Shown piece by piece: positions 25,546 through 46,687 of a stretch of 64,000 nt of DNA. The stretch's first letter is position 1. Each line of letters begins with the position of its first letter. Made by a program: the position numbers and the translations under genes. The notes beneath the pieces are model-generated. The model was not told where the DNA came from. It did no database searches and saw nothing but the letters and a program-made list of their open reading frames with translations. Source of the stretch: Mucilaginibacter glaciei (GTDB lineage Bacteria; Bacteroidota; Bacteroidia; Sphingobacteriales; Sphingobacteriaceae); assembly GCF_014773245.1 (NCBI RefSeq), contig NZ_JACWMX010000006.1, positions 62,001 through 126,000 of the forward strand, in the 5' to 3' direction.

Positions 25546-26199
25546 ATGAAAAACATCCAAGCCTGCATTTTTGATCTCGACGGAGTTATTGTCGACACTG
25601 CTGTTTACCACTACAAAGCCTGGAAACGGCTGGCCAATGGGATGGGGTTCGATTTTACCGAGCAACAGAACGAACAACTAAAGGGCGTAAGCCGGATGGC
25701 CTCGCTCGACCTGATCCTGGGCTGGGGAAATATTACTAACAAAACCGACGACGAGAAAGAGCAGCTGGCTACCCAAAAGAATGAATGGTATACCGATATG
25801 ATCAACACCATGACGCCTGCCGAGATCTTACCCGGTGCGCGCGAGTTTGTATTGAGCTGCCGCGATGCAGGGCTGAAGACAGCTATCGGCTCTGCCAGTA
25901 AAAACACGCCCACAATATTGACCAGACTGGAGCTATTGCCTCTGTTTGATGCCGTGATAGATGGCAACAGCGTAAGCAAACCCAAACCCGACCCGGAAGT
26001 ATTCACCAAAGGAGCCGAAGCATTGCAGGTAGCGGCAGCAAACTGCGTAGTATTTGAAGATGCCATAGCCGGTATAGAAGCCGCGATAGCCGGGGGTATG
26101 AAAGCAGTAGGCATTGGATCACCCGATACGCTTAAACAGGCTAATTTGGTGGTGAGCGGTTTGGATAAAATGACGCTGGAGATGCTGGAGGAATTGTAA
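25546..26199 (+). CDS. pgmB: Beta-phosphoglucomutase
   Basis: Converts beta-D-glucose-1-phosphate to glucose-6-phosphate. It is a 217-residue HAD-superfamily protein with nucleophile Asp10 and acid/base Asp12 in IFDLDGVIVDT, the cap-domain signature KGVSRMASLDLIL that distinguishes beta-phosphoglucomutases from other HAD phosphatases, GSASKN (motif II), KPKPDPEVF (motif III Lys) and VVFEDAIAGIEAA (motif IV). It would use the product of the GH65 phosphorylase at 4864-7176, although the genes are about 18 kb apart. The next gene, a metallo-beta-lactamase, begins at the base following the stop codon. Confidence 0.95.
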   Translation: MKNIQACIFDLDGVIVDTAVYHYKAWKRLANGMGFDFTEQQNEQLKGVSRMASLDLILGWGNITNKTDDEKEQLATQKNEWYTDMINTMTPAEILPGAREFVLSCRDAGLKTAIGSASKNTPTILTRLELLPLFDAVIDGNSVSKPKPDPEVFTKGAEALQVAAANCVVFEDAIAGIEAAIAGGMKAVGIGSPDTLKQANLVVSGLDKMTLEMLEEL

Positions 26200-27426: not shown

Positions 27427-28974
27427 TTAATGATGCTTTGTCTTGTTTCTCAGCAAGATTACAGGCTCATACAGGTCCCAATTTGGCTTAAACTCCTTTT
27501 GGTTAATGAGCCTGTCGCCGTAAATAGAAAAATTGCCCAGCACAACATCCTGATCGCCGTCGCCGTCAACATCTGCGACATCCATAGTAAGCCAACGTCC
27601 GTATTGGCTAATAGGGAGTTCATGAGGTTTAAACTTATTGGGCGAGAGTTGCTCCATGTAGGTGAAACCCTCCTCTGGATGATCCACAAAATCGGGGAAG
27701 AACGCGATAACGGCCAGGTCCATATCGCCATCGCCGTCAAAATCGGCAGCCATGGCCTTTGATGCCCCGTTAATGTGGTAAAAAAAAGTTTGCCTGAAGG
27801 TAAAATCGCCCCGGTTAGTAAAAATATATACCCCATGATAGGGTTTAAATATACTGGAGTAATCGTTATTATCGCCGCATGTGTAAACAATGTCTTTTTT
27901 GCCGTCGTTATTCATATCAACCAGCTGGAAGCTGTTGGTACCATTTACGGGCGGGAAACGCAGCAGGTTTTTAGTAGTAAAGCCACCTTTACGGTCGTTT
28001 AAAAACAGCCATACGCCTTCGTCTGCCTGGGCAAACAGGCAAAGCACATCAGGCCAGCCATCATTATTAAAGTCGCCGGTTTCCAGTTGTATGGCACCCG
28101 GTAATGCTCGTATAACCTTTCTTTTGAAAGTATGATCGGGCTGCTGCTGTACCAGGTAAATGCCGCCAACATTGTTGCCGTAACCGCATACGATGTAGTC
28201 TGTTAAGCCATCCTTGTTAAAATCGCCGGTGGCGGTTTGCACGGGGCGGGGCAGGCTATCAGTAACCAACCTCATAGCCGGATCTTTCGAACCCAGCATG
28301 ACTTGCTGCATACTGCCTTTAAGCAGATCATTTGGCGGCAGTACGCCAATACAGGTAAACACCGCAGCATTTTTTCCATCGTTTGTCTTAAAAAAGTTAG
28401 CCGCCGTAACGGGCGATGGCAACGATCTTACGAGCGTACCTTTTAGTTTGCTATCCCAGCTATATACATCGTTACCCAAACCTGTGTAGATTAGATGATC
28501 ATAAGGATTGAATTTGACCATACTGGTCATCGCCGGGCCGTGGGTAGTATCTACAACCGCGGGCCGCACCAATTCAAAAATACCCCAATCATGTACGGCA
28601 GTACGCTTGGGCAGGGTTAGTTTTTGTGGGGCAAGGGTGTGGTAAAAGGCGTTTATCTTCCGCCAGTCTTCGAGGTTTATTTGCGAGTGGGCATCCATGT
28701 AATAAGCGCCCATTTCCTGCTGCAGGCCTAATTTACCAGCCATGGCAGGCAATACGCCCCGCTCCCAGGTGCGTTTATCTAACAGTGCAGGTTCGGGATA
28801 TTGGTGGCAGCTAACACAATACTTTTTTGATAGGTCACCACCTTCGGTCACTTCGCGGCCGGCTTTTTGAGTGGGACTTTCACTGCAACCGTTCAGCACA
28901 AAAATTGCCGCAGTGATCACTGCAGCAATTAAAATGGCCGTTTTATTAATAGACAACTTATATCTCTTTCGCAT
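27427..28974 (-). CDS. FG-GAP/VCBS propeller lipoprotein with a c-type heme motif (copy 2)
   Basis: A 515-residue lipoprotein (lipobox FVLNGC). Right behind the anchor is a c-type heme-attachment motif, CVSCH (residues 53-57), followed by LPAM, where a Met could be the second axial ligand. The rest is a beta-propeller of FG-GAP/VCBS repeats with Ca-binding loops of the type DFNNDGWPD and DVDGDGDQD. It is a paralogue of the preceding gene (28988-30553), sharing the order lipobox, heme motif, propeller. Probably outer-surface or periplasmic. The start is the ATG at 28972-28974; the longer frame adds a TTG. Fourth gene of the ASPIC-haloperoxidase operon, 13 bases downstream of its paralogue. Confidence 0.88.
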   Translation of the reverse strand: MRKRYKLSINKTAILIAAVITAAIFVLNGCSESPTQKAGREVTEGGDLSKKYCVSCHQYPEPALLDKRTWERGVLPAMAGKLGLQQEMGAYYMDAHSQINLEDWRKINAFYHTLAPQKLTLPKRTAVHDWGIFELVRPAVVDTTHGPAMTSMVKFNPYDHLIYTGLGNDVYSWDSKLKGTLVRSLPSPVTAANFFKTNDGKNAAVFTCIGVLPPNDLLKGSMQQVMLGSKDPAMRLVTDSLPRPVQTATGDFNKDGLTDYIVCGYGNNVGGIYLVQQQPDHTFKRKVIRALPGAIQLETGDFNNDGWPDVLCLFAQADEGVWLFLNDRKGGFTTKNLLRFPPVNGTNSFQLVDMNNDGKKDIVYTCGDNNDYSSIFKPYHGVYIFTNRGDFTFRQTFFYHINGASKAMAADFDGDGDMDLAVIAFFPDFVDHPEEGFTYMEQLSPNKFKPHELPISQYGRWLTMDVADVDGDGDQDVVLGNFSIYGDRLINQKEFKPNWDLYEPVILLRNKTKHH

Positions 28975-28987
28975 CAATCTTCACCCG

Positions 28988-30553
28988 CTACCTGTAATGC
29001 TTATTACCTGTGTTGTTTTGCAATATGATGAACGGAGTATGCTCATCCCAATTGGGCGTAAAGTTAGGCTGAAACAAAAAACCTGCCGCGTAATTGCCTA
29101 AAATAATATCCGGTTTACCGTCGCCGTCATGATCGGTCACTTCCATGCTCAACCATCGGCCATTTTGGCTAACCGGTACGGCATGCGCTTTAAAGTTCAT
29201 TGGTTTATCCTGTTCAAAATAAATAAACTCTTCGGCCGGCTTACTCTTCATATCGGCAAAGAATGCTATGGTGGCAATATCCAGGTCGCCGTCTTTATCA
29301 AAATCAGTAGCGATGGCTTTAGTGCAGCCGTTTATGGGGTAAAACAAGGTTTGCTTAAATTTAAAATCGCCAAGGTTTTTAAAAATATACAAGCCATGGT
29401 ACGGTTTCAGGATCCGCGAATCGCGAAAGTTGTAGCCGCAAGTATAGATCAGGTCAAGCTTACCGTCATGGTCCATGTCAGCCAGTTGAAAACTGGTCGA
29501 GCCATTCGTTGGCGGGAAATTGAGCAGATCTTTTGATGTAAAACCGCCTTTATGGTCGTTTAGTAAAAGCGCTAAGCCCTCATTATTCTCGCCAAACAGC
29601 ACCATCAAATCCAGCCAGCCATCTTTGTTAAAATCGCCGGTCACCGCCTGCACGGCTCCTGCCCTGCTGCTGATGGTAAATTGCTTGTATGATTTATGGT
29701 CGGTTGTTGGCTTGAGTAAAAATATCCCACCTCGTAAATGCCCCTGGCCTAAAACAATAATTTCATTGGAGCCGTCCTTATCAAAATCGGCATTAAGGGT
29801 TTGTACCGGGCGAGGCAAGTCTGATGCCACCTCGGTTGGCTGTTGATTTTTACTACCTAATGCAACGTTATAGATCCTGCCATTAGGAAAATCAACCGGG
29901 TCTAAACGGCCTATGCAGGAGATGATGGCCTGCTCGGCACCTGTCGAATCCTTTACAAATTCGGCATTTACCGCAGCCGAAGGTAATTTAGTTTGCCCGC
30001 TCTCTTTCAAATCCCTTGTCCACCCGGTCATGTAACCGGATACCACATCGCCTGTGTACAATTTGCCTGTATTAGGGCTCGATGCCACCATGGTAGTAAA
30101 ACAAATATCATTAACCTTAGCAGGCTTTATTATACTAAAACCAGCCCAGTCGTTTAATAAGGGCGAGGGCGCTTTAGCCGGCATTAAGGTATCGGGTGCC
30201 ATTTTTTTGTAATAGGTAACAATACTTTGCCACTCTAAAAGCGAAAGGCCCGCAGTGTCTTTGTCGGCTTTGTAATAATCAGTACCATAGGTTGAAATAC
30301 CTAAAAATTGCGACATGGCTGGCAGGCTATGTACCGTCCAAACCGTTTTTGTAAGCGCGTTTACAGGTACCAGCGAATGGCATTTGGTACAATGCAATTG
30401 TACCAGGGCCTTACCATCGGCAATGGTATCACCGGTTAGTTCGTATGCTTGGGTCGGTTTACTTTTACAGCCGTTAAACAAGGTGCCGGCCGCCAATAAA
30501 AAAATGCCCGATAATAAAGATGATGTAAATAAAAATGTTCTATTCAGTTTCAT
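28988..30553 (-). CDS. FG-GAP/VCBS propeller lipoprotein with a c-type heme motif (copy 1)
   Basis: A 521-residue lipoprotein (Cys29 in TLFNGC). The heme-attachment motif CTKCH (residues 55-59) and a following SLPAM match the paralogue at 27427-28974. Several FG-GAP repeats follow, with DFDKDGSNE, DFNKDGWLD, DMDHDGKLD, DFDKDGDLD and DHDGDGKPD loops. A single covalently bound heme on a propeller lipoprotein suggests electron transfer to or from a partner, plausibly the neighbouring haloperoxidase-like protein. Function not established. It starts 25 bases downstream of that gene. Confidence 0.88.
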   Translation of the reverse strand: MKLNRTFLFTSSLLSGIFLLAAGTLFNGCKSKPTQAYELTGDTIADGKALVQLHCTKCHSLVPVNALTKTVWTVHSLPAMSQFLGISTYGTDYYKADKDTAGLSLLEWQSIVTYYKKMAPDTLMPAKAPSPLLNDWAGFSIIKPAKVNDICFTTMVASSPNTGKLYTGDVVSGYMTGWTRDLKESGQTKLPSAAVNAEFVKDSTGAEQAIISCIGRLDPVDFPNGRIYNVALGSKNQQPTEVASDLPRPVQTLNADFDKDGSNEIIVLGQGHLRGGIFLLKPTTDHKSYKQFTISSRAGAVQAVTGDFNKDGWLDLMVLFGENNEGLALLLNDHKGGFTSKDLLNFPPTNGSTSFQLADMDHDGKLDLIYTCGYNFRDSRILKPYHGLYIFKNLGDFKFKQTLFYPINGCTKAIATDFDKDGDLDIATIAFFADMKSKPAEEFIYFEQDKPMNFKAHAVPVSQNGRWLSMEVTDHDGDGKPDIILGNYAAGFLFQPNFTPNWDEHTPFIILQNNTGNKHYR

Positions 30554-30578
30554 AAGACCTTTAATACTTCTACTATTG

Positions 30579-31898
30579 TTAGTTCTGCAATTTTAACTTA
30601 TTCCAGATGTATTCGCCAATTTGCCTGCCTTGTGTAGCGCCCGCATTAACACTTACTTTATAATGGATGCCACCATAATATCTGCTTAAAGAGCATTCGT
30701 CCGCTGCTTTTAAAAACGAATCGAAATGGCGCTGCATCCCTATATAGCGCAAATCGCTGGTATCCATATAACTAAAATCATCACCAAATAAATGCGTCAG
30801 GATCACTGCCGATGCACCGCTGATATCGCTATGCCCGCTCGGATATTCAGGGAATGGCGGGGTTTGCAGCAAGGGCAGCCAGCGGTTATCAATCTCGGCA
30901 TTAATAACTGTTACCGGCCTGATGTATTGCGTGGCGTATTTAACCTGCCAGCCGCAAATAAAGGCATCATACAAGGCTATCGAGGTTAAAGCATAAGCCT
31001 GCGCAATCTTCACCGCGTCGGCTTTGGTTTTTTTGCACGCGATGGCAGTTATCCCTATCCAGTGCCCGCCGGGGGTGATCTTTTTGTTAACAAACATCAT
31101 GTGCCCGCTGTGCTGTATCACAAAGGGGTTATCATCCCAAAACTTAGCAATGATGAGCTGCTCGGGCGTATTGCTTTTGCTTTGGTTATAAACCGATAAA
31201 TTCTGCTTAAAATATTCACTGTTTTTATCTTTACTGAACGGAGGTGGCGGCGGCAGCGCAAAGTCTGACGATGATTTTACCGCGAAGGTTTCCATCGTAC
31301 CCCAGCAAAATTCTACACCGTCCAGGTAGTCGGGTGCGGTGGGGCGCCATTTACCGTCTTCTTCTACACCCAAGAACCTTGGTTTACCCCTTGTTTGCGG
31401 GTAGTTATCGAAAGCAGCGCGACCTAAAATAGCTTTGCCCACCTTTTCGCCGAAGGCCATCGACCGGGCGTAGGTAGAATCGTCCAGGTTATCCTGGTAC
31501 ATGGCAAATACCTTTGTTTCGTACTTTTTAAGTGTGTCTATTGAAAAGGTAACCTTGTGCGCTACCGTAAAGTAAGCTTTGGTGGCTGCCAGGGCGTAAT
31601 TGTACTTTTTACCTTTTTGCGGCTGCGGGATGGGTTTAAAGCCATTTAACTGGCTCACAATCGAGTTGTATTTTGGGTTGGCAAAGCGCATCGTTTCATA
31701 CGCGGCTAACGATGTGTAGCCGTAAATGCGGCTTGCAACCGGCGGACTAAATACATCATAAATAATAACCTGGGTAAGCTGGTCGACATTGTTGTGTAAA
31801 ACCTCGGCATCGCTTAGTAGCTTTGCCTCATCTTTTTGCTTGCAACCTGTGGCGAACACAACGAAAGCAGCGGCAAATAAAATCTTTAAATATTTCAT
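30579..31898 (-). CDS. Vanadium-dependent haloperoxidase-type PAP2 lipoprotein
   Basis: A 439-residue lipoprotein (Cys19 in VFATGC). It carries the complete vanadate/phosphate-binding signature: K320-X6-R327-P328, then PSGH (353-356) after 24 residues, then S405-R406-X5-H412 after 48 more residues. In vanadium haloperoxidases these bind vanadate and oxidise halides with H2O2; in the related PAP2 phosphatases the same residues hydrolyse phosphate esters. Sequence cannot decide between the two, but the K-X6-RP spacing and the long helical N-terminal half favour the haloperoxidase branch. It sits between the ASPIC protein (21-base gap) and two heme-motif propellers (25-base gap). Confidence 0.88.
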   Translation of the reverse strand: MKYLKILFAAAFVVFATGCKQKDEAKLLSDAEVLHNNVDQLTQVIIYDVFSPPVASRIYGYTSLAAYETMRFANPKYNSIVSQLNGFKPIPQPQKGKKYNYALAATKAYFTVAHKVTFSIDTLKKYETKVFAMYQDNLDDSTYARSMAFGEKVGKAILGRAAFDNYPQTRGKPRFLGVEEDGKWRPTAPDYLDGVEFCWGTMETFAVKSSSDFALPPPPPFSKDKNSEYFKQNLSVYNQSKSNTPEQLIIAKFWDDNPFVIQHSGHMMFVNKKITPGGHWIGITAIACKKTKADAVKIAQAYALTSIALYDAFICGWQVKYATQYIRPVTVINAEIDNRWLPLLQTPPFPEYPSGHSDISGASAVILTHLFGDDFSYMDTSDLRYIGMQRHFDSFLKAADECSLSRYYGGIHYKVSVNAGATQGRQIGEYIWNKLKLQN

Positions 31899-31919
31899 AT
31901 CAATAGGTTAGGCAATATA

Positions 31920-34900
31920 TTAATTTAACAGAATACTCCTCGCATGGCCTGTATTGTCCGTCACCGTAACCGAGGCCATTGACTTGTCGGTGTTAAAAAA
32001 CCTTGCAGATTGCGACAGGAACGATCCACCGTTATAAAACTCTCTTTTTTCAGCCTTACCATTTTTGTATTTAATGGTGGCAAACATATCTAAAGGCTGC
32101 AGTTTAACAGTGCTTACCGGCTTTTTCAATTCAAACAATTTTAACGCAGCCTTATATTGCGATGCCGCCAGTAAATACTGCCCTTTAGCGCCGCGCAGTT
32201 TCACCAAAGCCTTACCATCGCCGGGGATATAAATCCCGCTTTGCTGAATGGTGAGTGGCTTGAAACCGCCTTTGCCATCGCCCTTTAATAACAAGCCATT
32301 AAAGGCATCGTACCGGCCGGTGCTTACCTCGGTGCCAAAATCGTTTCCGCTTAAGGCTACGTCCAAATTACCATCGCCGTCAAAATCATCAACCACCATA
32401 CCGCTTAATTGCGAAATCTGCGCGGCTTCAGGCAATGGTATCATCGTAAACTTACCCTTGCCGTCATTACGCAGATAGCACGACTGCAACATGTTAGCCT
32501 TTAACCTGATAGCACCTTTACGCATTTCGGGCGTTATTACGCTATCCATTGTCGCTACCGCGTACGATTTAAAGTTCTGGAACTTGATCCGCATGCTGAT
32601 CATCTGTTTCACAATATCCTCGCGCGTATGTGCCGGGAACTCCTGCATTACCCCCTTCTTATCTTTCAGGAAAACAGATGGGAAGGCATCATAACTGTGG
32701 TTGTTATCAAAGTCTTTAGCGGTAATATACATGGGGTACTGATCTGTAGCCTTGTAAAAAGTATTTAAACCAGTGTTGCCAACAATGTAGTCTATATCAC
32801 CATCGTGGTCAAAATCGGCACCGGTAATGGTGTTCCACCAACCTAACTGATTAGCAATTCCCGTTCCCTCCGTTTGATCTTTAAAGATACCGTGGTCGTT
32901 TTTAAAAAACTTAACGGGCATCCACTCGCCGGTAATTACCAGATCTGGCCAGCCATCGTTATCATAATCTGTAAATGCGGCATCACATACCAGGCCTATA
33001 TTGGTTAAGCCTTTGGCAACGGTTGGTGTTACGTCTGTAAATTTTATCTGGCCGGGCTTGCTGTCATTCCGTAATATCAAACTCGATACCGGTTTAGGGT
33101 ATTCCCATGGTTGCACCCTGCCCGATACAAACAGATCAAGCTTGCCGTTCTTGTCGTAATCAACTGCCTTCACACATAACTTGCTGGTAAAGTTAGCGGG
33201 CAAAGCGTCGGGTTGCAAGGTAAAATCCCCTTTCCCGTTATTCATATAAACCCTGTCCTGGTAGGATATAGACCCTGGTTCCTGCTCGTAACCACCGCTG
33301 GCAACGTAAAGGTCAAGGTCGCCATCGCCGTCTGCATCAAATAGCAGCAGTCCTTCGTCTTTAAATTTGGTGCCGCCCGATGGTACCGTTGCAAGCATCT
33401 CCCTTTGAATAAATTTGCCGCTGGCCTGTTGTAGAAACAACTGTGCCGGATATTTGGAAGTGCCGCCAACCACCATATCATCAAAACCATCGCCGTTGAT
33501 ATCGCCTACAGCAATGGCCGGCGAATATTCCGATAATTTATGTGGAATGAGTTTCTGGATGTTAAAATCTATAAAATCGTCCGACTTATGGATGTAGTTA
33601 ATACCCGCGTTTTTGGTTACTTCGGTAAACAGGGATTGTGTGTTGATCTTCGGCGCATCAAAGCTATAGCCGATTTTTGCATCAGCTATGGTAACAGTGA
33701 GTGTTTGGTCGACCTTTACATTTTGCAATTTTTGCTGTTTACCGTTTTGCCATTTGATCACCACCGAATCTATCCGGGTTACTTTTCCCAAACCAAAATT
33801 GGCTATGTTTTGAATAGTTGATAAGTATCCCCTGAAAGGCGAATTCTCATAAACCTGGTGCTTGCCATTATTGTAATAAATATCGGCCCAGGCACCTATA
33901 CCGTCCTTATTTTGTTCGTCGCCTTTAAATTGAATATGCAGGTAGTGGCTGTCGTCTTTATTATTTTCGCGCAGGGTGTTGCGGTATATCGATGCCTCGC
34001 TGTTAATATTATTGATGATCATATCCATAGCGCCGTCATTATCCAAATCAGCGTAGGTGGCACCATTAGAAAAACTCGGCTCGTCTACCCCCCATTTTTT
34101 TGAAACATCCTCAAATTGCAGGGTACCCGTATTACGGAACGCGTAGTTAGGGATCTTCACCACCGGGATCTGATCCAACACTTGTTTTTTGGTGGCTACG
34201 GCATACGACTCTTCCCTGAAGGTGATAAAATCATGATCGGTAACATCGCGGGGGTATCCGTTGGTAACTACAATATCCCTAAAACCATCGTTATCAAAAT
34301 CGGTTATCATAGGGCCCCAGCTCCAGTCTGTTTGGGCTACGCCGCTCAAAAATGCTATTTCGCTAAAAACAGGTGCACCTATCGAATCATTTTGCCCCAG
34401 GCGCGGGCCCTGGTTAAGTTGTAAGGTATTGTGATTGTACTGATACTGGTAGCCGTAGTTGTCAAAATTTTGATAAAGCTGGTATTGCGTGCCCGGCATA
34501 AACATCTTTTTACGATAGTTATCCTCGGGGTCCATATCCAGTTCAAAAACATCGGCAAGTCCGTCGTTATTAATATCCTGTATATCCTGCCCCATAGCAC
34601 TGGTGGCGGTATGTTTAAAATACTCACGTGTGCGGTCGGTAAAAGTACCATCGTGATTGTTGATGTACAGGATATTGCTGGGTAAAAAGTCGTTGGTAAC
34701 GTAAATATCTTTCCAGCCATCTCGGTTAATATCGGCTATGCTGGTTGCGTGTCCGTAGCCTTCTATCAGAATGCCCGCTTGTTTGGAAACGTTCGTGTAA
34801 ACCGCGTGTTTTAACGCGGCGTTGTAATCGTTACGGTAAAGCCTGCCCGTGCTGCGGGCGCTGCCATCGGTAATTATCGGTCTGAAAGCGCTGGTATTAT

Positions 34901-35495
34901 CTGTCGATTTGGCTTCGTTTACGGTGAGGTACATATCCAGGTCGCCGTCATTATCGTAGTCAAAAAACGAAGCCATTGTGGAGTGTACATTAATATCCAG
35001 GCCGTATGCTGCCGCCTGCTCCTTAAAATGCGGAACGCCGTCTTTATCCGGGCCCAGGTTAATATACAGCAGGTTCACTCGCTTTACCGGATTGTTTAAA
35101 AGCGTATTGCAAACGTAAATATCTTTAAAGCCGTCGTTATTAATGTCAAACACGGCCACGCCCCTTCCCCAGCCTCCTTTACCGCCTACACCGGCCTTAT
35201 CGGTCACATCATCAAAAACCATATCGCCTTTGTTGATATACAATTTGTTTGATACCGCATTACCCACAAAGTAAAGATCCTGCAGGCCATCGTTGTTAAA
35301 ATCGCCCACGCCTACGCCCCCGCCGTTATAAATATTGAGCATATCCAGCGGGTTGATAGAATCGTTCTCTACAATGTTATTATTAAACTTGATGTTGGAA
35401 TGTGACGAGGCTACTTTTTCAAAAAGCGTGGCTTTTTTACAGGAGAACGCAAATAGCGCAATGGCAATTAATATGGGGAATCTTAAAGCTCTCAT
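31920..35495 (-). CDS. Giant FG-GAP/VCBS protein with ASPIC/UnbV domain
   Basis: A 1191-residue lipoprotein (Cys19 in FAFSC). It contains two sets of FG-GAP/VCBS repeats (about 50-500 and 630-1090) with many DxNxDGxxD loops such as DFNNDGLQD, DINNDGFKD, DYDNDGDLD and DFDGDGNLD. The ASPIC/UnbV domain lies between them (about 535-610, with IGAWADIYYNNGKHQVYE and DSVVIKWQNGKQQ). Such proteins often follow SusCD pairs in Bacteroidota and are thought to be surface-exposed; their ligand is unknown. It follows susD but a hairpin with a U-run separates them, so transcription may be attenuated or start anew. First gene of a four-gene tight run. Confidence 0.93.
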   Translation of the reverse strand: MRALRFPILIAIALFAFSCKKATLFEKVASSHSNIKFNNNIVENDSINPLDMLNIYNGGGVGVGDFNNDGLQDLYFVGNAVSNKLYINKGDMVFDDVTDKAGVGGKGGWGRGVAVFDINNDGFKDIYVCNTLLNNPVKRVNLLYINLGPDKDGVPHFKEQAAAYGLDINVHSTMASFFDYDNDGDLDMYLTVNEAKSTDNTSAFRPIITDGSARSTGRLYRNDYNAALKHAVYTNVSKQAGILIEGYGHATSIADINRDGWKDIYVTNDFLPSNILYINNHDGTFTDRTREYFKHTATSAMGQDIQDINNDGLADVFELDMDPEDNYRKKMFMPGTQYQLYQNFDNYGYQYQYNHNTLQLNQGPRLGQNDSIGAPVFSEIAFLSGVAQTDWSWGPMITDFDNDGFRDIVVTNGYPRDVTDHDFITFREESYAVATKKQVLDQIPVVKIPNYAFRNTGTLQFEDVSKKWGVDEPSFSNGATYADLDNDGAMDMIINNINSEASIYRNTLRENNKDDSHYLHIQFKGDEQNKDGIGAWADIYYNNGKHQVYENSPFRGYLSTIQNIANFGLGKVTRIDSVVIKWQNGKQQKLQNVKVDQTLTVTIADAKIGYSFDAPKINTQSLFTEVTKNAGINYIHKSDDFIDFNIQKLIPHKLSEYSPAIAVGDINGDGFDDMVVGGTSKYPAQLFLQQASGKFIQREMLATVPSGGTKFKDEGLLLFDADGDGDLDLYVASGGYEQEPGSISYQDRVYMNNGKGDFTLQPDALPANFTSKLCVKAVDYDKNGKLDLFVSGRVQPWEYPKPVSSLILRNDSKPGQIKFTDVTPTVAKGLTNIGLVCDAAFTDYDNDGWPDLVITGEWMPVKFFKNDHGIFKDQTEGTGIANQLGWWNTITGADFDHDGDIDYIVGNTGLNTFYKATDQYPMYITAKDFDNNHSYDAFPSVFLKDKKGVMQEFPAHTREDIVKQMISMRIKFQNFKSYAVATMDSVITPEMRKGAIRLKANMLQSCYLRNDGKGKFTMIPLPEAAQISQLSGMVVDDFDGDGNLDVALSGNDFGTEVSTGRYDAFNGLLLKGDGKGGFKPLTIQQSGIYIPGDGKALVKLRGAKGQYLLAASQYKAALKLFELKKPVSTVKLQPLDMFATIKYKNGKAEKREFYNGGSFLSQSARFFNTDKSMASVTVTDNTGHARSILLN

Positions 35496-35523
35496 TATAA
35501 TAGGTCTGAAACAAATATATAAT

Positions 35524-35562
35524 AAAAAAAGAGGGAGAGATTAACTCTCCCCCTCTTTTTTA
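35524..35562 (-). terminator. Hairpin with U-run between susD and the ASPIC gene
   Basis: On the minus strand the stem pairs AGAGGG-AGAG type sequence with CTCT-CCCCTCT, with a small bulge, and is followed by a T-run. It could end the susCD transcript or let only part of it read through into the ASPIC operon. Confidence 0.75.
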
Positions 35563-35581
35563 TAAGAACCTAAGCTAAAAA

Positions 35582-37399
35582 TTAGTAGCCCGGGTTTTGT
35601 TTGATATTACCCTGAGTGATATCTATCTGCGCTTGCGGGATAGGGTATAACTCGTTTTTACCAACTGTAAATTTAGCTTGTTTGATCAACAAGATAGGGA
35701 AGTTAGGAACAGCGTTTTCATGTGCTAAGTAAGCATTGATTTGCGCGCCCATGTAACCGGCACCTTGTGGGCCACCTGTCACACCATCCCAACGCTGTAA
35801 GTCGAAGAAACGGTGGCCTTCCATACCAAACTCCAAACGACGCTCGAAATAAACGATCTTACGTGCAGTAGCTTTATCTGTAAATGCCGTAGCAGGATAT
35901 AAACCAACTTTGTAGTTAGCAGCAGGTGTGCTGGTGTAACCGCCTGTAGGTTTAGTAGCATCGATGTAAGTATGAACCCAACCTGTAGCATCAGCAGCAC
36001 GTGTACGGATCTGGTTTACATAAACGCGTGCCTGCTCTAACGTACCAACTTCAACTTCGCACTCTGCAGCCCATAAAATAATATCGGCAAAACGGATAGC
36101 ATTGTAGCTGTTAGATGTAGCCTGGTTTGCAGCCCAACCGCCATAAGTATCTGATGTTGTAGCCTGTGCGGCCTGGTAATAAACGTTTTTGATAGCGGTG
36201 TATGGTCCACCGTCATCCTGGTCACGTGCCCATGCTTTACCCGGGTGTAAACCCCAGTCAAGATAAGGGATACCACGGCGACCTATCGTCCAGTCTAAAC
36301 GTGAATCTAAAGTACCTGTCTCTGGCGTAAACGGTGATGCCTCGCTGATACCCTGGTCATTCTTGATATCAGAATTGTTATAAGTATCTAACAAAGGTAA
36401 ACCTGTAACTGCATCAGTTTTGAAAGCATTTGCTAAACTGAATGACGGCTGGAAGAAACCACAGCATGAAGCCGGGCCACCTGCACCAAAGTTCAGTGTG
36501 CTACCTGCGTTACCATTTAAACCGTTTGCACCATCCTTAACAGATGTTTGTACCACAAACACACCCTCGGGGCCGTTTTTGGTTGACGGGTTAAAGTTAT
36601 TTGAGTATTTACCCAAGGCATATTTGGCACCACCGGCAGTAACACCGTTAGCGATCAAATCTTTCAGGATTGCATTTGCTTCAGTGTACTTATGATCATA
36701 CATATAAGCCTTGGCAAGAAAAGCTCTTGCAGCAGATTTATTTGCACGGCCGACTTGCGGTTGTGTAGCAGGCAATACAGCAGCTGCTGCTGCAAAATCA
36801 GCCTCTATTTTATCCCAAATGGGGCCAGGGTTACCAATGGTGTAGTTACCTGCATCATAAGTAACGGTTTCATCAGCATAGGGCACATTTCTCCATAATT
36901 TGGCTAATTCGAAGTGATAAAAACCACGCAGGAAACGCGCTTCGGCAGTTGCTTGTGCAATATTATCTGCTGATAATGAACCATCTTTTACCAAAGGGAT
37001 CTCACGTAGTACATCATTTGCACGTTGTACACCTGCAAAGTTCATTCTCCATTTTGGATCCAGGTAATCGTTTACACCTGTCATAGTGCGCGACTCGATA
37101 TCCGCAGCACTTGGCTGATCGCCGGGGGTTGAACCTTTGTGCGCATCATCTGCAGCAACGCTACCATAGATCCAGTTATCTGTACCGGTAGACCATGTAG
37201 CACCCGCCTGGCCGTTGTACACACCATCAACAAGTGAATAGGCTCCTATCAGTAAACCGTCAACACCGGCTTTGTTAGCCAATACGATTTGGTTTAATGA
37301 ACCTGTAGGCGTTTTTTCCAGGAACTTCTTACACGACATAGAGAAGGCAAGCGTGGCTATGGAACCCACAATAATTAGTTTGTTGTTTAATATTTTCAT
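35582..37399 (-). CDS. SusD/RagB-family outer-membrane nutrient-binding lipoprotein
   Basis: A 605-residue lipoprotein (lipobox near FSMSCKKFL) that forms the lid of the SusCD transporter at the cell surface and binds the incoming ligand. It has the SusD features: CKKFLEKTPTGSL at the mature N-terminus, tetratricopeptide-like helices (ARFLRGFYHFELAKLWRNVPY, AARAFLAKAYMYDHKYTEA) and the C-terminal RKIVYFERRLEFGMEGHRFFDLQRW, plus ELYPIPQAQID. It lies 27 bases downstream of the susC gene. The ligand cannot be predicted from sequence; no glycanase gene is directly linked. Confidence 0.97.
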   Translation of the reverse strand: MKILNNKLIIVGSIATLAFSMSCKKFLEKTPTGSLNQIVLANKAGVDGLLIGAYSLVDGVYNGQAGATWSTGTDNWIYGSVAADDAHKGSTPGDQPSAADIESRTMTGVNDYLDPKWRMNFAGVQRANDVLREIPLVKDGSLSADNIAQATAEARFLRGFYHFELAKLWRNVPYADETVTYDAGNYTIGNPGPIWDKIEADFAAAAAVLPATQPQVGRANKSAARAFLAKAYMYDHKYTEANAILKDLIANGVTAGGAKYALGKYSNNFNPSTKNGPEGVFVVQTSVKDGANGLNGNAGSTLNFGAGGPASCCGFFQPSFSLANAFKTDAVTGLPLLDTYNNSDIKNDQGISEASPFTPETGTLDSRLDWTIGRRGIPYLDWGLHPGKAWARDQDDGGPYTAIKNVYYQAAQATTSDTYGGWAANQATSNSYNAIRFADIILWAAECEVEVGTLEQARVYVNQIRTRAADATGWVHTYIDATKPTGGYTSTPAANYKVGLYPATAFTDKATARKIVYFERRLEFGMEGHRFFDLQRWDGVTGGPQGAGYMGAQINAYLAHENAVPNFPILLIKQAKFTVGKNELYPIPQAQIDITQGNIKQNPGY

Positions 37400-37426
37400 C
37401 TTTAAAACTTTTTAAATTCTTTCTAA

Positions 37427-40400
37427 TTAAAACGTTACGCGTACACCGAAGATAAACTTACGTTCGGTACTTGGATAGTTACCAAAATCAACACCGTTAC
37501 TGTTACCAGTAACTGCCTGCAATTCAGGATCTAAACCGGTGTATTTAGTAATTACGAAAGGATTAACTACCTGGATGTATAAATTTAACCTATCAGCACC
37601 GATTGTCTTGATACCATTTTTAAATGTGTAACCTAACTGTACCTGGCGCATTTTCAGGAATGAACCATTTTCAAGATAGTATGAGTTAACTACACCACTT
37701 GTACTAAAGCTGCTTGTTGCTTCGGCAATTGGCGCTTTAGGGTTAAGGTTAGTTGGTGTCCATGAGTTAAATAACAGGTCGTTACTTTTGTTACCGGTTA
37801 ATGAACTGTAGAAGTTAGTCCAGTATTTAACATAGTTAAAGTTGTCGTTACCCTGTGAACCATACAGGTTGGTACTCAGATCCCAATTCTTGTAAGTAAA
37901 ACCTAAGTTGATACCGTAAGTAAAGTCTGGGTTTGGGTTACCAAAGAAAGTACGGTCATCCGGTGTAATTTTACCATCACCATTAACGTCACGGTATTTG
38001 AAACGGCCCGGTGCAGCACCATCCTGAGTAGGAGAAGCACTAACATCAGCCGCAGACGAGAAATAACCAACTACGTCATACCCGTAAAAAGAACCAATCG
38101 GGTTGCCTGATTGCTGACGAGAGATATCGCCTATACGGCTGCCAACAACGGTGAAAGGTGCCGGAATATTGGAAATTTTGTTTTTATAAGTAGTAAACTG
38201 AATGCCTAAGTTAAAGCCAAAATCGCTTCCGATTTTATCGCGGTAATTTAACGACGCGTCGATACCTCTGTTACGCACCTCACCAGTGTTGATTGACGGT
38301 GGCGAAGCACCACCTGTTGTTGCAGGCAATGCCGGGGCAAACAACAAGTTTGTAGATCGTTTTTGGTAATATTCTACCGATAGATCTAATTTATTGAACA
38401 AGGTTGCATCGAAACCTACGTTAGCGATGTAATCCCTTTCCCAGGTAGTTGCAGCGTTCCCAATGGTACGGTTGTAGAAACCTTGTTGGATGCTGCTGCT
38501 TGTACCGCCGATATCATAGAAAGATGCACCTTTATCCAAACCATAAAGTGAAAAAGCATTCGATGGTGATACGTTATTGTCAAAACCGGCAACACCGTAG
38601 CTACCACGGATCTTTAACGAATTTAACCAGCTGATGCCTTTGGCAAACTCTTCCTGAGTTACGCGCCATGCAGCTGACCCTGATGGGAAGTAACCGATGT
38701 TTTTGCCTGGTGCAAATCTTGAAGAACCGTCACGACGTATTGATCCCGATAAAATATACTTGTCATTGAATACATAGTCTACCTTAGCAAAAAAAGATTG
38801 GTGCGTAATAGGCTGGGCATTGTAACTGAAAGCAGTTAATGAACCTGTACCGCCTGATAAAGTTACGAATGCAGGATCAAGAGATGGCAAACTGGTAACA
38901 CTACCACCAACACCGCGTCCAAATTCTTCTCTTTGCTCATAACCGGCTAAAACATTGATGCTGTGTTTACCAATTATCTGGTTGTAAACTACAGTGTTAC
39001 TCCAGTTGTAGTTGTTGTAGTAACCTGCATTTTCGCTGAAGCTTTCTGTACCACCGTGGCCTTCACCGCTATCATAAGGGCGGTAGTTGATGGTATAGTT
39101 AGAGAAGTTGTTAACCGTACCGCTAAACGCTGTACGCGCTGTGAAATGTTTCAGGAAATCCGCTTCAGCAAATACTGTACCCGAAATATTCCAGGCTTTA
39201 TTAGTATTGAATTTTTGCCTGTCTTGTGTAGCAACCGGGTTAACGGCATTACCTAATGCGGTAGGGCCTGCCCAGGTACCGGCATATTGTTTGCCAGAGA
39301 TATCGTAGATAGGGATCTGCGGCTCTATACGGTAAACTTCAGAGATAGAGTTACCCTCGCCTTGGTTACCACCAGGGATGTTACCCTGACCTGTTGGAGA
39401 TAAGGTGTAATATAACGAAGCATTTTCACCTACACGGAAGTGATCTTTAATATTAAATGTAGTATTAATACGTGTAGTAGCCCTTTTAAAATAGGTATTT
39501 ATAAGAGTACCCTGTGTATTTTGGTAACCTGCAGACAGGTAGTAAGAATTCTTATCATTAGCACCTTGCGCACTGATAGTGTGCTGTTGCATAGATGCAG
39601 GTTTGAATACAGCATGGAACCAATCAGTACCCTGGTTGTTGTCAAATTTCTGGATCAGGTAATCATTGTTTGGGTTAAAGGTATCAAACCTGTAACGAGA
39701 TGGATCAACCTCAGGCGCACCCGCTGCAAACACACCTTTAACACCGGGCCCCTGTGCACCAAAATCGGCAATGGCACCGCTTGGCAAAAACAAACTGCTT
39801 TTAGGGTCAACCTGTTTTACAAGTGTCAAATAATCCTTTGCATTTAATACATTGAAAGGGTTACCACCTAAAGGCCTTTGCGTACCATAATAACCATCAT
39901 AGGTTATTGTTGACCTGCCTTGTTTACCTTTTTTAGTAGTTACGATAACAACACCGTTACCACCCGCAATACCGTAGATAGCAGCAGCACCCGCATCCTT
40001 TAATACCGAGATAGATTCGATATCATTAGGGTTAACGTTACCTAAATCGCCACCTTGTACACCATCGATGATGATCAGCGGAGAAGAGTTAGCAAAGTTA
40101 GAGATACCACGAACAAGGATCTGGGCACCTGCACCCGGCGCACCCTGTGTTACCACCGTAACACCCGATGCCTGACCTTGTAATAATTGGTCTGAGCTAC
40201 TTGCAGGTACTTTAATGGCTTGTGCAACATCAACTGTTGCAACCGCACCAGAGATGTCTTTTTTACGTTGCGAAGTGTAGCCTGTTACCACTACTTCATT
40301 TAAGCTGTTACTTGCTGCCTGTAAAACCACTGAGATCTGGTCGCCTGAGCCTACAGTAACTTCTTGCGGGGTATACCCGATGTACGATACAACCAGTACG

Positions 40401-40621
40401 CTGCCCGAGCTTACACTTAATGTAAATTGCCCGTTAACGTCTGTTTGTGTTCCGGTAGTAGTGCCCTTGATACGCACCGAGGCGCCAACTACCGGCAACT
40501 TGTCGTCGCTGCCAGTAACACGGCCTGTGCGTTTTGTTTGGGCTGTAACTACCAATGAAGAAACCATGCAGCATAGTAGCAGGCATAGCGTTCTTCCCTT
40601 AAGGAGTAAACTTTTAAACAT
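37427..40621 (-). CDS. SusC/RagA-family TonB-linked outer-membrane transporter
   Basis: A 1064-residue outer-membrane barrel. After the signal peptide (about 1-27, VVTAQ) come a carboxypeptidase-regulatory-like beta-sandwich (about 30-115: TGRVTGSDDKLPVVGASV, VNGQFTL), the SusC-type segment NEVVVTGYTSQRKKDISGA, a TonB plug (about 120-230: LLQGQASGVTV, ILVRGISNF, PLIIIDG, IESISVLKDAGAAAIYG) and a long barrel ending in a Phe-terminated strand (FGVRVTF). It imports a ligand presented by the SusD partner, driven by TonB-ExbBD. First gene of the susCD unit; a long AT-rich region lies upstream. Confidence 0.97.
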   Translation of the reverse strand: MFKSLLLKGRTLCLLLCCMVSSLVVTAQTKRTGRVTGSDDKLPVVGASVRIKGTTTGTQTDVNGQFTLSVSSGSVLVVSYIGYTPQEVTVGSGDQISVVLQAASNSLNEVVVTGYTSQRKKDISGAVATVDVAQAIKVPASSSDQLLQGQASGVTVVTQGAPGAGAQILVRGISNFANSSPLIIIDGVQGGDLGNVNPNDIESISVLKDAGAAAIYGIAGGNGVVIVTTKKGKQGRSTITYDGYYGTQRPLGGNPFNVLNAKDYLTLVKQVDPKSSLFLPSGAIADFGAQGPGVKGVFAAGAPEVDPSRYRFDTFNPNNDYLIQKFDNNQGTDWFHAVFKPASMQQHTISAQGANDKNSYYLSAGYQNTQGTLINTYFKRATTRINTTFNIKDHFRVGENASLYYTLSPTGQGNIPGGNQGEGNSISEVYRIEPQIPIYDISGKQYAGTWAGPTALGNAVNPVATQDRQKFNTNKAWNISGTVFAEADFLKHFTARTAFSGTVNNFSNYTINYRPYDSGEGHGGTESFSENAGYYNNYNWSNTVVYNQIIGKHSINVLAGYEQREEFGRGVGGSVTSLPSLDPAFVTLSGGTGSLTAFSYNAQPITHQSFFAKVDYVFNDKYILSGSIRRDGSSRFAPGKNIGYFPSGSAAWRVTQEEFAKGISWLNSLKIRGSYGVAGFDNNVSPSNAFSLYGLDKGASFYDIGGTSSSIQQGFYNRTIGNAATTWERDYIANVGFDATLFNKLDLSVEYYQKRSTNLLFAPALPATTGGASPPSINTGEVRNRGIDASLNYRDKIGSDFGFNLGIQFTTYKNKISNIPAPFTVVGSRIGDISRQQSGNPIGSFYGYDVVGYFSSAADVSASPTQDGAAPGRFKYRDVNGDGKITPDDRTFFGNPNPDFTYGINLGFTYKNWDLSTNLYGSQGNDNFNYVKYWTNFYSSLTGNKSNDLLFNSWTPTNLNPKAPIAEATSSFSTSGVVNSYYLENGSFLKMRQVQLGYTFKNGIKTIGADRLNLYIQVVNPFVITKYTGLDPELQAVTGNSNGVDFGNYPSTERKFIFGVRVTF

Positions 40622-41446
40622 GAGATTGAGATTTAGTTGATTAATATATTTGATTTAAGACTTTAGTTCAATGCTTGAATAAACGATTGACACTTACCGG
40701 AATGGGCAACAAGACAAAACCTAAATGATTTTCTTTTGAGAAAGGGGTGAGATACCCTTTGGCTGAGAAGTTTAAAAGAAAAAAATGTAAAAGTTTTATC
40801 ATATAGTGGCAATCACCTGTTAAAATTTATTTCGCCCGCCATCCTAACGTACCCAACTATTTTGATGGATCATTAATCGTGCTGTTGTTCGTTAAGTTTG
40901 TTTTCTTTTCGTGTGATGAAAAGTTTATAATGGTAATGCACTAATATAAATAGTGTGTATAGGTTACACAAGCACCGCTAATAGAATTGTAAATTATTTA
41001 TTATTTCAATTAAAAACCGTTATAGTTTATATTAAATTAATTGTCCATTAAATAAATATTAACAAATACCCTTCTTTAATAAAAACTTAGCAATGTAAAA
41101 AAGTTGTTATACAATACTTTTTAGAGTAAAAAGCCCACATTATTTTTTATGGAAGTTGCATATCAGCAACCATTCATAAAAATTTTAGAATTTGCCATCA
41201 CTTTCTGCCTAAAAAACACGTAGTGAACAAGTGCTGTGTTAACCTCACGTTAACCTTATGTTATCATTTATTGCATCAGAATTCACTGCCAATCTATGTA
41301 TCAACACAGTAAGTTAAGAGGATTTTATTTGGCTAATTTAGTTTTTGTATAAAAAAAATATGCCTTAGCTAACCGCTAAGGCATATTACAATCTGTTTTA
41401 TATAAAGCAAATTTAGCCGGGTTTATTATTTAATTCACCTTACTTA
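40622..41446. other. Long AT-rich upstream region of susC, no gene
   Basis: This 825-base interval contains only the GH3 terminator (41351-41387) and presumably the susC promoter. No perfect TAnnTTTG box was found on the minus strand near susC. Other features are two GTTAACC copies (41238-41254) and a short hairpin-like AAAGGG...CCCTTT (40741-40760). No open frame looks coding. Function beyond control of susC is unknown. Confidence 0.5.
41351..41387 (-). terminator. Intrinsic terminator of the GH3 gene
   Basis: A perfect 13-bp stem (AATATGCCTTAGC / GCTAAGGCATATT) with a 5-base loop, followed on the minus strand by eight T residues. Confidence 0.92.
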
Positions 41447-43753
41447 CTACTTCGTCCACTGCACTTTGGCTGTTTTCACATCTGCGGAATTCGTTCCTAT
41501 CTGGATACCGAACTCGCCTGGCTCCCAATCATATTTCAACTGGCTGTTATAAAATTTAAGCTGCGCCGGGGTAATGGTAAAGCTTACCTCTTTCGCCTCC
41601 CCTACCTGCAACATCACTTTTCTAAAGCCCTTCAATTCTTTAACCGCACGGCTCACACTGGCCACAGGGTCGCTGATGTATAACTGTACCACTTCTTCGC
41701 CGGCGTATGGGCCTGCGTTGGTTACAGTAACGGTAGCGGTTACCGCATCGTTACCCTTTAAATTGGTTTTGCTTAGTTTAATATCGCTATAAGTGAATTT
41801 AGTGTAGCTCAAACCATAACCAAACGGAAACAACGGATCGTTTGCGATATCCAGGTAGTTGGATTTGAATTTGGTAGGCCCATCGGTATACGGTCGGCCT
41901 GTATTTAAATGGTTGTAATAAACTGGTATCTGGCCCACGCTACGCGGGAAGGTGGCTGTTAAGCGACCTGCGGGGTTGTAGTTGCCAAATAACACTTCGG
42001 CAATGGCGTTGCCTGCCTCTGTGCCGGGTGCCCATACATCTAATATAGCGGCTGCATTCTCATTCTCGGTAGTTAAGGTAAGCGGGCGGCCGTTAAACAA
42101 TACGATCACCACGGGCTTGCCGGTTAAATACAACGCCTTTAATAATTTACGCTGACTTTCGGGGATATTGATATCCGACCGGCTCGACGATTCGCCACTC
42201 ATACTTTGCGATTCTCCCACTACGGCTAACACGATGTCTGATTTCTTGGCCGCTTTAACCGCATCTTCTATCATCTCATCGGGCGACTTTTTATCCAGGC
42301 TAACCATATCCGGGCCGAAGTTAAGGCGTTTCATAAATTCAGCATCATCGGTGATGTTGCTTCCTTTGGCGTAGTTTAATTTTACATTATCGCCAACTAT
42401 ATGTTTGATACCTTCTAATACACTTACCGATTTTTCCCATTCGCCGGCAATTACCCAAGTGCCCAGCATGTCGCGTTTATTATCGCCCAGTGGCCCAATC
42501 ACCGCAATACTGCCACCCGATTTTTTAAGTGGCAAGATCTGGTTATTGTTTTTTAAGAGTACAAAAGAGTGCTCGGCAGTGATGCGGGCCGCTTTGCGGT
42601 TCTCGTCATTAAACACGTCGCTTTTTTCTTTTGCCGGGTTGATGGATTTGTAAGGGTTATCAAACAACCCTAATTTATATTTAGCCTCTAACACGCGGCG
42701 GCAAGCCAGGTCGATATCGGCAAGGCTTATCTTCTTTTCATTCAGTGATTTTTTAAGTGTCGTTAAAAAGCCCTCGCCCACCATATCCATATCTAAGCCG
42801 GCCTTTAACGCCAGGGCCGATACCTGTTGCAAGTCGCCCATGCCATGGTTGGTCATTTCGTTAACGGCGGTATAATCTGACACTACAAAACCTTTAAAGC
42901 CCCATTGATTGCGCAGCAGGTCGGTTAGTAACCACCTGTTACCTGTAGCGGGCACACCATCCACCACGTTGAACGAGCTCATGAAACTCCCTGCACCCGC
43001 ATCAACAGCGGCTTTGTACGGCGGCATATAATCCTGGTACATGCGCAGGCGGCTCATATCAACGGTGTTGTACTCCCGGCCGGCTTCGGCACCGCCGTAT
43101 AATGCAAAGTGCTTTACGCAGGCCATAACGGCATCAGCATTTTTCATATTAGTACCCTGGTAGCCACGTACCATAGCACCGGCAATTTTACCGCCTAGCC
43201 ACGGGTCTTCACCGCTGCCTTCAGAGATGCGGCCCCAGCGGGCATCGCGGGCAATATCAACCATGGGCGAAAACACCCAGTTCAGCCCTTCGGCAGTGGC
43301 CTCTTTCGCGGCAATGTGAGCGGCATTTTCTATCAGGCCCAAATCCCATGTTGCCGACATGCCCAACGGAATTGGAAATATAGTGCGGTGACCATGGATC
43401 ACGTCCAACCCGAATATTAAAGGGATATGCAGGCGGGTACCCTTTACCGCAGCATCCTGCGCCTTGCGTACGTTGTCGGTTCCGTATAAGCCAAATATCC
43501 CACCGATGCTACCTTTGGTTATGCCATTGTCTATCCCGCTGTTGGTAACAGAGCCGGTAATGGCCATACCGCCGGTTACCAGGTTAAGCTGCCCAATCTT
43601 TTCGTCAATAGTCATCTTCTTCATCAGTGTACTAACAAAGGTGTTCATCTTGGCGTCGGCAGCAGGCTGTTGTGCCATTGCCCCATAAGGCATAACCAGT
43701 AAAGCAGCGGCGGCAAACTTTAAAACGGGCTTATTGGTAAAAAATGTTTTCAT
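41447..43753 (-). CDS. Exported glycoside hydrolase family 3 beta-glucosidase
   Basis: A 768-residue periplasmic GH3 enzyme (signal peptide about 1-28, YGAMAQ). The N-terminal barrel holds the nucleophile Asp293 in GFVVSDYTAV and the substrate-contact motif KHFALYGG (214-221). The alpha/beta domain (about 400-600) has GESQSMSGES, whose region supplies the acid/base Glu in BglX-type enzymes, and a C-terminal fibronectin III-like domain follows (VTVTNAGPYAGEEVVQLYISDP). This is the BglX layout; it removes terminal beta-glucose from oligosaccharides. It is divergent from a Nudix-derived regulator gene, with 185 bases between the two starts, so it is a likely target of that regulator. Confidence 0.95.
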   Translation of the reverse strand: MKTFFTNKPVLKFAAAALLVMPYGAMAQQPAADAKMNTFVSTLMKKMTIDEKIGQLNLVTGGMAITGSVTNSGIDNGITKGSIGGIFGLYGTDNVRKAQDAAVKGTRLHIPLIFGLDVIHGHRTIFPIPLGMSATWDLGLIENAAHIAAKEATAEGLNWVFSPMVDIARDARWGRISEGSGEDPWLGGKIAGAMVRGYQGTNMKNADAVMACVKHFALYGGAEAGREYNTVDMSRLRMYQDYMPPYKAAVDAGAGSFMSSFNVVDGVPATGNRWLLTDLLRNQWGFKGFVVSDYTAVNEMTNHGMGDLQQVSALALKAGLDMDMVGEGFLTTLKKSLNEKKISLADIDLACRRVLEAKYKLGLFDNPYKSINPAKEKSDVFNDENRKAARITAEHSFVLLKNNNQILPLKKSGGSIAVIGPLGDNKRDMLGTWVIAGEWEKSVSVLEGIKHIVGDNVKLNYAKGSNITDDAEFMKRLNFGPDMVSLDKKSPDEMIEDAVKAAKKSDIVLAVVGESQSMSGESSSRSDINIPESQRKLLKALYLTGKPVVIVLFNGRPLTLTTENENAAAILDVWAPGTEAGNAIAEVLFGNYNPAGRLTATFPRSVGQIPVYYNHLNTGRPYTDGPTKFKSNYLDIANDPLFPFGYGLSYTKFTYSDIKLSKTNLKGNDAVTATVTVTNAGPYAGEEVVQLYISDPVASVSRAVKELKGFRKVMLQVGEAKEVSFTITPAQLKFYNSQLKYDWEPGEFGIQIGTNSADVKTAKVQWTK

Positions 43754-45808: not shown

Positions 45809-46687
45809 TTAAACCTTCGCCCCTAGCAACAAACGCCAGGCCCAGCGGGTGGCAAAATTAAAACCGCCCCAGCTATCCACAAACTTGATGATATCGCCCA
45901 GGCAGTTCTGACTGAATTTTTTATGAAAGTTTTGCTTCGCTTCTTTAAAAACCGCATCGGCATTAGTGATGCCTAAACGCTCGTAAATTTCTTTACGTAC
46001 GTACATGGTACGCACAAAATGGATATTGATCAGGATCACAAAGCTGTAAGCCGATTTTTTAATAAACCCGGCTTTTGCTGTGTAGCGTTCCAATAAGCCC
46101 TTAGTGAAATGGATATGACGGCCTTCTTCAATGTTATGCAGTTCGAAAACCTTTCTTAAAACCACGTAAATCTCCGGTGCGCGGCGGGCGTAGTTACCGT
46201 ATTTATCGGTAATCAGTTCGACAGCAACGCTGCCCATAAAAAGGTAATCGGCAGGGAGCAGGTTGGTGCTTATTTTACCACTTAAACGATGAGCCGTTGT
46301 TTGGGTAAGTGGTTTACCGTTCAATTGCGCTATGGCTTGCGCAAACATTTCCTGGTGGCGGTATTCTTCAATGATCTCGCGGATCAGGAAACGGTGCTCG
46401 GGGCTTTCGGGCGGCAATTCCAAGGCAAACTTGGCCATGAAAACGCAGAACAACGCTTCGCCCCACCCGTATGAATAGAGCACCTGCACTACCTCGTGCC
46501 GGCCAAGATCAGCTTTTTGTAAAGGGGTTAAAGTATCGTAAATAGGCAGCCCTTGCAAGGATGTTAAAACTTCGGGCAGGTACAGATCTTCGGGCGTAGC
46601 TAATTCCGCCCAAGGCACGTAAGTTTCGGGCATTAGCGGCCGTTCCTTACTTATTTTGATTAAGCGCTCAATCTCTTCTGCCTGCAT
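45809..46687 (-). CDS. AurF-like diiron oxygenase family protein
   Basis: A 292-residue all-helical protein of the p-aminobenzoate N-oxygenase (AurF)/diiron family. Metal-ligand motifs are visible in paired helices: EVVQVLYSYGWGEALF, EIIEEYRHQEMF, VAVELITDKYG and FELHNIEEGRHIHFTKG, giving the Glu and His set for two irons. The family inserts oxygen into amines or other organic substrates using O2. No biosynthetic cluster surrounds it, so the substrate is open. Monocistronic, flanked on both sides by repeats. Confidence 0.85.
   Translation of the reverse strand: MQAEEIERLIKISKERPLMPETYVPWAELATPEDLYLPEVLTSLQGLPIYDTLTPLQKADLGRHEVVQVLYSYGWGEALFCVFMAKFALELPPESPEHRFLIREIIEEYRHQEMFAQAIAQLNGKPLTQTTAHRLSGKISTNLLPADYLFMGSVAVELITDKYGNYARRAPEIYVVLRKVFELHNIEEGRHIHFTKGLLERYTAKAGFIKKSAYSFVILINIHFVRTMYVRKEIYERLGITNADAVFKEAKQNFHKKFSQNCLGDIIKFVDSWGGFNFATRWAWRLLLGAKV

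Follow-up and report, generated by a model that had tools for sequence, protein, structure and literature searches.

The locus considered here raises the question of why a SusCD-type uptake system should be followed by a vanadium-haloperoxidase-like protein and two heme-type propeller lipoproteins. It lies in a 64,000-nucleotide stretch of the Mucilaginibacter glaciei genome (contig NZ_JACWMX010000006.1, positions 62,001 to 126,000), hereafter the window, and comprises six genes on the minus strand. The first encodes a SusC/RagA TonB-dependent transporter of 1064 aa (37427..40621; TIGR04056, E=1e-244) with plug, barrel and CarbopepD_reg_2 domains, and the adjacent gene encodes a SusD-like lipoprotein of 605 aa with a predicted surface location (35582..37399; PF07980, E=4e-38); this pairing identifies a SusCD uptake locus. 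Downstream are genes for a giant ASPIC/UnbV lipoprotein of 1191 aa with two FG-GAP propeller regions (31920..35495; seven FG-GAP_3 matches and a UnbV_ASPIC domain at residues 532-600), a vanadium-iodoperoxidase-like PAP2 lipoprotein of 439 aa (30579..31898; hereafter VHPO), and two lipoproteins, CytA (521 aa; 28988..30553) and CytB (27427..28974), which are 43% identical and each combine a mono-heme-type domain with an FG-GAP propeller. These assignments agree with Pfam and NCBIfam searches, in which the fourth gene matched PAP2 and the last two matched FG-GAP. For CytB, an ATG start at 28974 was favoured over a TTG at 28977. The compact same-strand run noted in a preliminary description of this DNA was confirmed, with gaps of 27, 86, 21, 25 and 13 bp from susC to CytB, and the lipoboxes that it attributed to the downstream proteins are supported by lipobox-like signals. 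The nearest homologues all belong to Mucilaginibacter (75-90% identity).

Between susD and the ASPIC gene lies a terminator-like hairpin with a 16-bp stem and a T run (35525..35561, minus strand). A stable hairpin occurs at this junction in nearly all Mucilaginibacter loci examined (L001-L020), and in two of them (L016 and L018) the stem differs yet remains paired. This element may govern how much SusCD is made relative to the lipoproteins encoded downstream, possibly through transcript attenuation. The six genes include no catalase, AhpC or OxyR-type gene, and no source of H2O2 is encoded in the cluster. Near the locus and outside the cluster is a gene for an AurF-type diiron N-oxygenase (45809-46687, minus strand). 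A flanking gene on the opposite strand (25546-26199) was considered as a candidate haloacid dehalogenase and rejected, as it matches general HAD families only.

Residues 5-437 of the 439 in VHPO align to the Zobellia galactanivorans enzyme 4cit at 42% identity (phmmer, E=3.5e-118), revealing a full-length, two-domain alpha-helical architecture that is more than a bare PAP2 domain. Other vanadium haloperoxidases score far below 4cit in the same search, and the bacterial acid phosphatase 7f17 is at noise level (E=0.47). In the alignment with 4cit, the vanadate-site residues K320, R327, S354-G355-H356, R406 and H412 are all present, and K320, R327, P328, H356, R406, G410 and H412 are invariant in 107 of 107 VIPO-like proteins. 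The third motif, SRxxxGxHxxxD, is incomplete; its terminal Asp is Ser416 in the window protein and Ala in 4cit. Thus, the haloperoxidase signature previously described as complete is so for its vanadate-binding residues but not for this Asp, which is found in none of 87 ASPIC-linked homologues and is kept in six of nine distant PAP2 paralogues. Because Ala occupies the position in 4cit, an active enzyme, a missing Asp is not disqualifying for the VIPO group, and its loss groups the window protein with the Zobellia-type enzymes. The PAP2 lipoprotein is apparently a competent enzyme of the vanadium-haloperoxidase type, and homology suggests that it oxidises halides. A simple lipobox pattern was found in 61 of 87 VHPO ORFs; lipobox-type signals, together with the SusCD context, point to probable display at the cell surface.

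Conservation of the neighbourhood was followed first within the genus. The order SusC-SusD-ASPIC-VHPO-CytA is kept in 18 of 19 Mucilaginibacter loci with full flanks, the exception (L010) retaining SusCD and VHPO without ASPIC or CytA, and CytB is present in 7 of the 19. This supports a conserved unit tied to SusCD. Across nine Mucilaginibacter genomes, 32 of 33 VHPO genes have an ASPIC gene no more than 11 kb away, where approximately 3% would be expected by chance per gene; these genes are related, and the small binomial value is not a true probability. The pair also occurs at separate loci of a single genome (L052, L054 and the window).

The search was then widened to a sample of 201 genomes from the family and another of 296 from the phylum, and the 20-kb neighbourhoods of 116 VHPO-like genes were inspected, comprising 107 VIPO-like genes and 9 distant PAP2 paralogues that served as an internal control for linkage. 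An ASPIC gene is located within 8 kb of 87 of the 107 VIPO-like genes, compared to one of the nine paralogues. Both members of the pair share a strand in 82 of these 87 cases, ASPIC lies upstream of VHPO in 84, and in 36 the genes overlap or have at most 20 bp between them. Linked copies were identified in 62 of 75 genomes and in 10 of the 12 sampled families having VIPO-like genes, and in a tree built by a quick method they span almost the entire VIPO-like group, apart from sporadic losses. Moreover, SusC or SusD is encoded in the same 20 kb at no fewer than 55 of the 87 ASPIC-linked loci, a lower bound because these neighbourhoods end within loci, versus 1 of 20 unlinked loci. The linkage of ASPIC and VHPO is thus supported far beyond the genus and is not accidental. 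The distance correlation between the two proteins is positive and moderate (0.33 for all pairs and 0.41 for adjacent pairs), and strict co-evolution is for that reason not claimed. That 20 of the 107 VIPO-like genes stand alone indicates that the enzyme can work without the module. In a high-GC genome of the phylum (L160), a VHPO gene approximately 3.5 kb from ASPIC had been masked by a longer spurious ORF during ORF picking, such that 88 of 108 is possibly the better linkage count. Co-occurrence in other Bacteroidota, which the preliminary description proposed as a check, was recovered for the ASPIC and VHPO pair, while CxxCH-FG-GAP genes accompany it in a subset only.

The partnership includes the Zobellia lineage. 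In a Zobellia-like genome (L165), the gene for a protein with 98.4% identity to 4cit is immediately preceded by three ASPIC genes of the same orientation, and the nearest SusD on that strand is approximately 20 kb upstream. Because of these ASPIC genes, the same partnership can be assigned to the gene for the crystallised enzyme or for its counterpart in a very close relative. A family search in three further genomes that have triple-ASPIC loci placed a SusD gene upstream and on the same strand in each, at a short distance from the ASPIC array in two.

The AlphaFold model of the ASPIC giant (pLDDT 91.7) has CRTAC1 as its best Foldseek match (9etn, TM 0.74 on target length), and its UnbV_ASPIC domain and FG-GAP repeats place it among the CRTAC1-like ASPIC/UnbV proteins. 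In the nine Mucilaginibacter genomes, 39 of 50 long ASPIC genes are linked to VHPO, as are none of seven short ones (~750 aa). Elsewhere in the genome of the window, a paralogous SusCD-ASPIC locus without VHPO (L055, C16:360000-379999) carries two 3-keto-disaccharide hydrolase-type proteins, a cytochrome c domain protein and a GSDH protein; by these annotations, ASPIC is linked there to oxidative sugar processing.

Each FG-GAP lipoprotein at the end of the cluster contains a single c-type heme motif, CTKCH in CytA and CVSCH in CytB, as had been reported. Pfam cytochrome models matched neither protein. Among 40 aligned homologues, Met80 is present throughout and CxxCH in each of the 38 that include this region, and the AlphaFold model of CytA (pLDDT 87) shows a small helical N-domain (helices 43-54, 69-84 and 105-118) ahead of the FG-GAP propeller. 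A small helical domain bearing CxxCH and an axial Met is the mark of a mono-heme c-type cytochrome, and conservation and the modelled N-domain support a putative heme domain in CytA and CytB. Proteins with CxxCH make up 5.0% of ORFs within four genes of an ASPIC-linked VHPO versus 0.6% farther off, an approximately eight-fold enrichment that is inflated because orthologous loci are included. CytA homologues also occur in loci free of VHPO, several of them behind SusCD and beside GH3 or GH29, and one behind GH92. Heme propellers were consequently rejected as core subunits, since most ASPIC-VHPO loci lack them and some glycan loci have them but no VHPO; the preliminary description had included them in its possible surface complex, and they are better regarded as accessories. 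Two further arrangements should be mentioned. In the genome of the window, a CytA-like gene (L197, C16:507407-508918) is located directly behind genes for GH20, GH29 and GH92, an N-glycan-type set. In five ASPIC-VHPO loci (L086-L089 and L177), a GSDH-cytochrome c fusion (Pfam-tested in L086) is found with further small cytochromes c and RidA-like and SMP-30/gluconolactonase-like proteins, constituting a larger redox variant.

What the system imports can be approached through its glycosidase neighbours. The preliminary description found no glycoside hydrolase linked to the locus, which is correct for the six genes, none of which encodes a CAZyme, but a gene for a GH3 glycosidase of the beta-glucosidase type (41447..43753, minus strand; N- and C-terminal GH3 domains) precedes susC by 825 bp, and all 18 relatives that allow the comparison have one upstream of susC as well. 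A strong, 13-bp terminator-like hairpin (41357-41387) separates the two genes, so that GH3 is probably a separate transcript, and the locus differs in this respect from a strict polysaccharide utilisation locus, in which a CAZyme is co-transcribed with SusCD. The neighbours of other module copies include GH65-like, GH37 trehalase, GH3 and GH29 alpha-L-fucosidase genes, a ROK kinase and a sugar MFS transporter, and the glycosidases vary from copy to copy. Over its full length, the SusD protein has as its nearest solved relatives the SusD homologues 5lx8, 5t3r and 6z8i (E=1e-53), which we take to be the levan-locus SusD BT1762. The recurrence of glycosidases beside the modules makes a sugar-containing ligand more likely than one that is not a glycan; together with the SusD relatives, it suggests that the SusCD ligand is probably sugar-containing.

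The reading that we tentatively favour, while rating it as somewhat short of probable in its full mechanistic form, is that of a SusCD uptake locus with a probable sugar-containing ligand and with a Zobellia-type vanadium haloperoxidase among its surface lipoproteins. Its gene content, gene order, phylum-wide linkage and conserved vanadate site are direct observations. In the proposed mechanism, SusC and SusD would capture and import the ligand, and the ASPIC/FG-GAP giant would act as a surface scaffold or ligand-binding partner, as its gene adjoins both susD and the peroxidase gene. Supplied with H2O2, VHPO would generate hypohalous acid from halide at the cell surface, a reaction that would consume peroxide and could attack the polymer, its phenolic decorations or competitors. 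The two mono-heme propeller lipoproteins, added in Mucilaginibacter, might relay electrons released when sugars or aromatics are oxidised. Both this role of the hemes and any use of the oxidant are guesses. Substrate conditioning, peroxide removal and halogen capture are candidate uses of the oxidant, and the specific suggestion that the substrate is oxidised or halogenated before import is not supported; other roles of hypohalous products or of H2O2 consumption fit equally well. Against the favoured reading count the absence of an H2O2 source from the cluster, the scarcity of iodide in soil, a possible phosphatase activity of the PAP2 enzyme, the 20 stand-alone VIPO-like genes, the varying glycosidase neighbours and the probably separate transcription of GH3. 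In a bolder version, which we consider unlikely, SusCD-ASPIC-VIPO would be an oxidative uptake machine found throughout the Bacteroidota, with VHPO docked on the ASPIC double propeller and the ligand halogenated or oxidatively trimmed, or halogen captured, prior to import.

Other explanations of the association differ in what they take the peroxidase to do. VHPO might serve in peroxide or oxidant defence, as a surface H2O2 sink for a SusCD-fed cell living on plant, fungal or algal matter that releases H2O2, with the association with transport reflecting co-regulation and not substrate processing. Such a role has precedents, since vIPO3 and a haloacid dehalogenase of Zobellia are upregulated on brown algae, which was read as coping with algal defences (PMC9296495), and soil haloperoxidases have been proposed as a defence against oxidative stress (PMC4926216). 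The occurrence of stand-alone VIPO-like genes is also in keeping with it. However, a simple sink would have no need to be paired so persistently with SusCD and an ASPIC lipoprotein of 1100-1200 aa, and the lack of catalase, AhpC and OxyR-type genes in the cluster further lowers the standing of a defence role, which we judge to be rather doubtful. A role for the PAP2 protein as a surface phosphatase, removing phosphate from the ligand ahead of import in an otherwise ordinary uptake locus, would accord with membership in the PAP2 superfamily and with the phosphatase activity that apo-haloperoxidases show. This is improbable given that full-length similarity, including the N-terminal half, is to haloperoxidases while acid phosphatases remain at noise, and that no ASPIC-linked copy keeps the third-motif Asp that typifies both groups.

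Similarly improbable is halogen acquisition, in which the module would oxidise iodide or bromide with H2O2 and SusCD or ASPIC would retain or import iodinated or hypohalous species. It draws on the presence of a 4cit-like gene in the same ASPIC module and on FG-GAP propellers, which are typical Ca2+ binders. It is also favoured by Arenibacter C-21, in which iodine uptake requires glucose, O2, Ca2+ and H2O2, a haloperoxidase has been proposed, and the genome has five 4USZ homologues (PMC5064120). Such uptake would fit a Ca-binding propeller and VHPO module near sugar genes, as a lead only. Yet many copies of the module, including that of the window, are carried by Sphingobacteriaceae such as Mucilaginibacter, which we take to be mostly non-marine; the glycosidases that recur beside the modules likewise count against it. 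Finally, a neighbourhood of six genes due to chance or mere local synteny is scarcely credible. Flanking genes are partly syntenic too within Mucilaginibacter, but the ASPIC-VHPO pair recurs at different loci of one genome and in 10 of 12 sampled families in diverse surroundings, and this phylum-wide recurrence rules out a chance neighbourhood.

For the vanadium iodoperoxidases of Bacteroidota, a structure is available and no settled physiological role was found in the literature searched. A fixed partnership with SusCD and ASPIC giants, present in many families and repeated within one genome, offers a concrete and testable context; if the oxidative uptake machine is real, the Zobellia-type iodoperoxidases would operate in vivo as part of it. 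Orphan ASPIC/UnbV lipoproteins, in turn, gain a recurring partner enzyme. The open-access papers searched held nothing relevant on SusD or ASPIC together with a haloperoxidase, and none placed 4cit beside ASPIC or SusCD; an earlier description elsewhere is possible.

Four known systems invite comparison. The window protein resembles VIPO1 of Zobellia galactanivorans (4cit/4usz) in its full-length homology, vanadate-site residues, lipobox and replaced third-motif Asp, but it comes from Mucilaginibacter and differs near the site at F259/Tyr, P353/Thr and S416/Ala (window/4cit). The ASPIC giant shares an FG-GAP propeller and ASPIC domain with CRTAC1 and the ASPIC-UnbV FG-GAP proteins, yet it is twice as long as CRTAC1, adds a second propeller region and is a lipoprotein. 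The surface sugar-oxidation loci of Bacteroidota that encode GSDH/ThuA-cytochrome c likewise fuse a heme domain to a propeller near SusCD, and some ASPIC-VHPO loci have GSDH-cytochrome c in place of CytA/CytB-type proteins; in contrast, the propellers of CytA and CytB are FG-GAP and not GSDH, and Pfam recognises no heme domain in them. Lastly, SusCD polysaccharide utilisation loci such as the levan type (BT1762; 5lx8/6z8i) share with this locus the SusC-SusD pair, downstream lipoprotein genes, a terminator-like hairpin after susD and a nearby GH3, whereas the six window genes include no glycanase, lyase or glycan regulator and encode a peroxidase and heme propellers instead.
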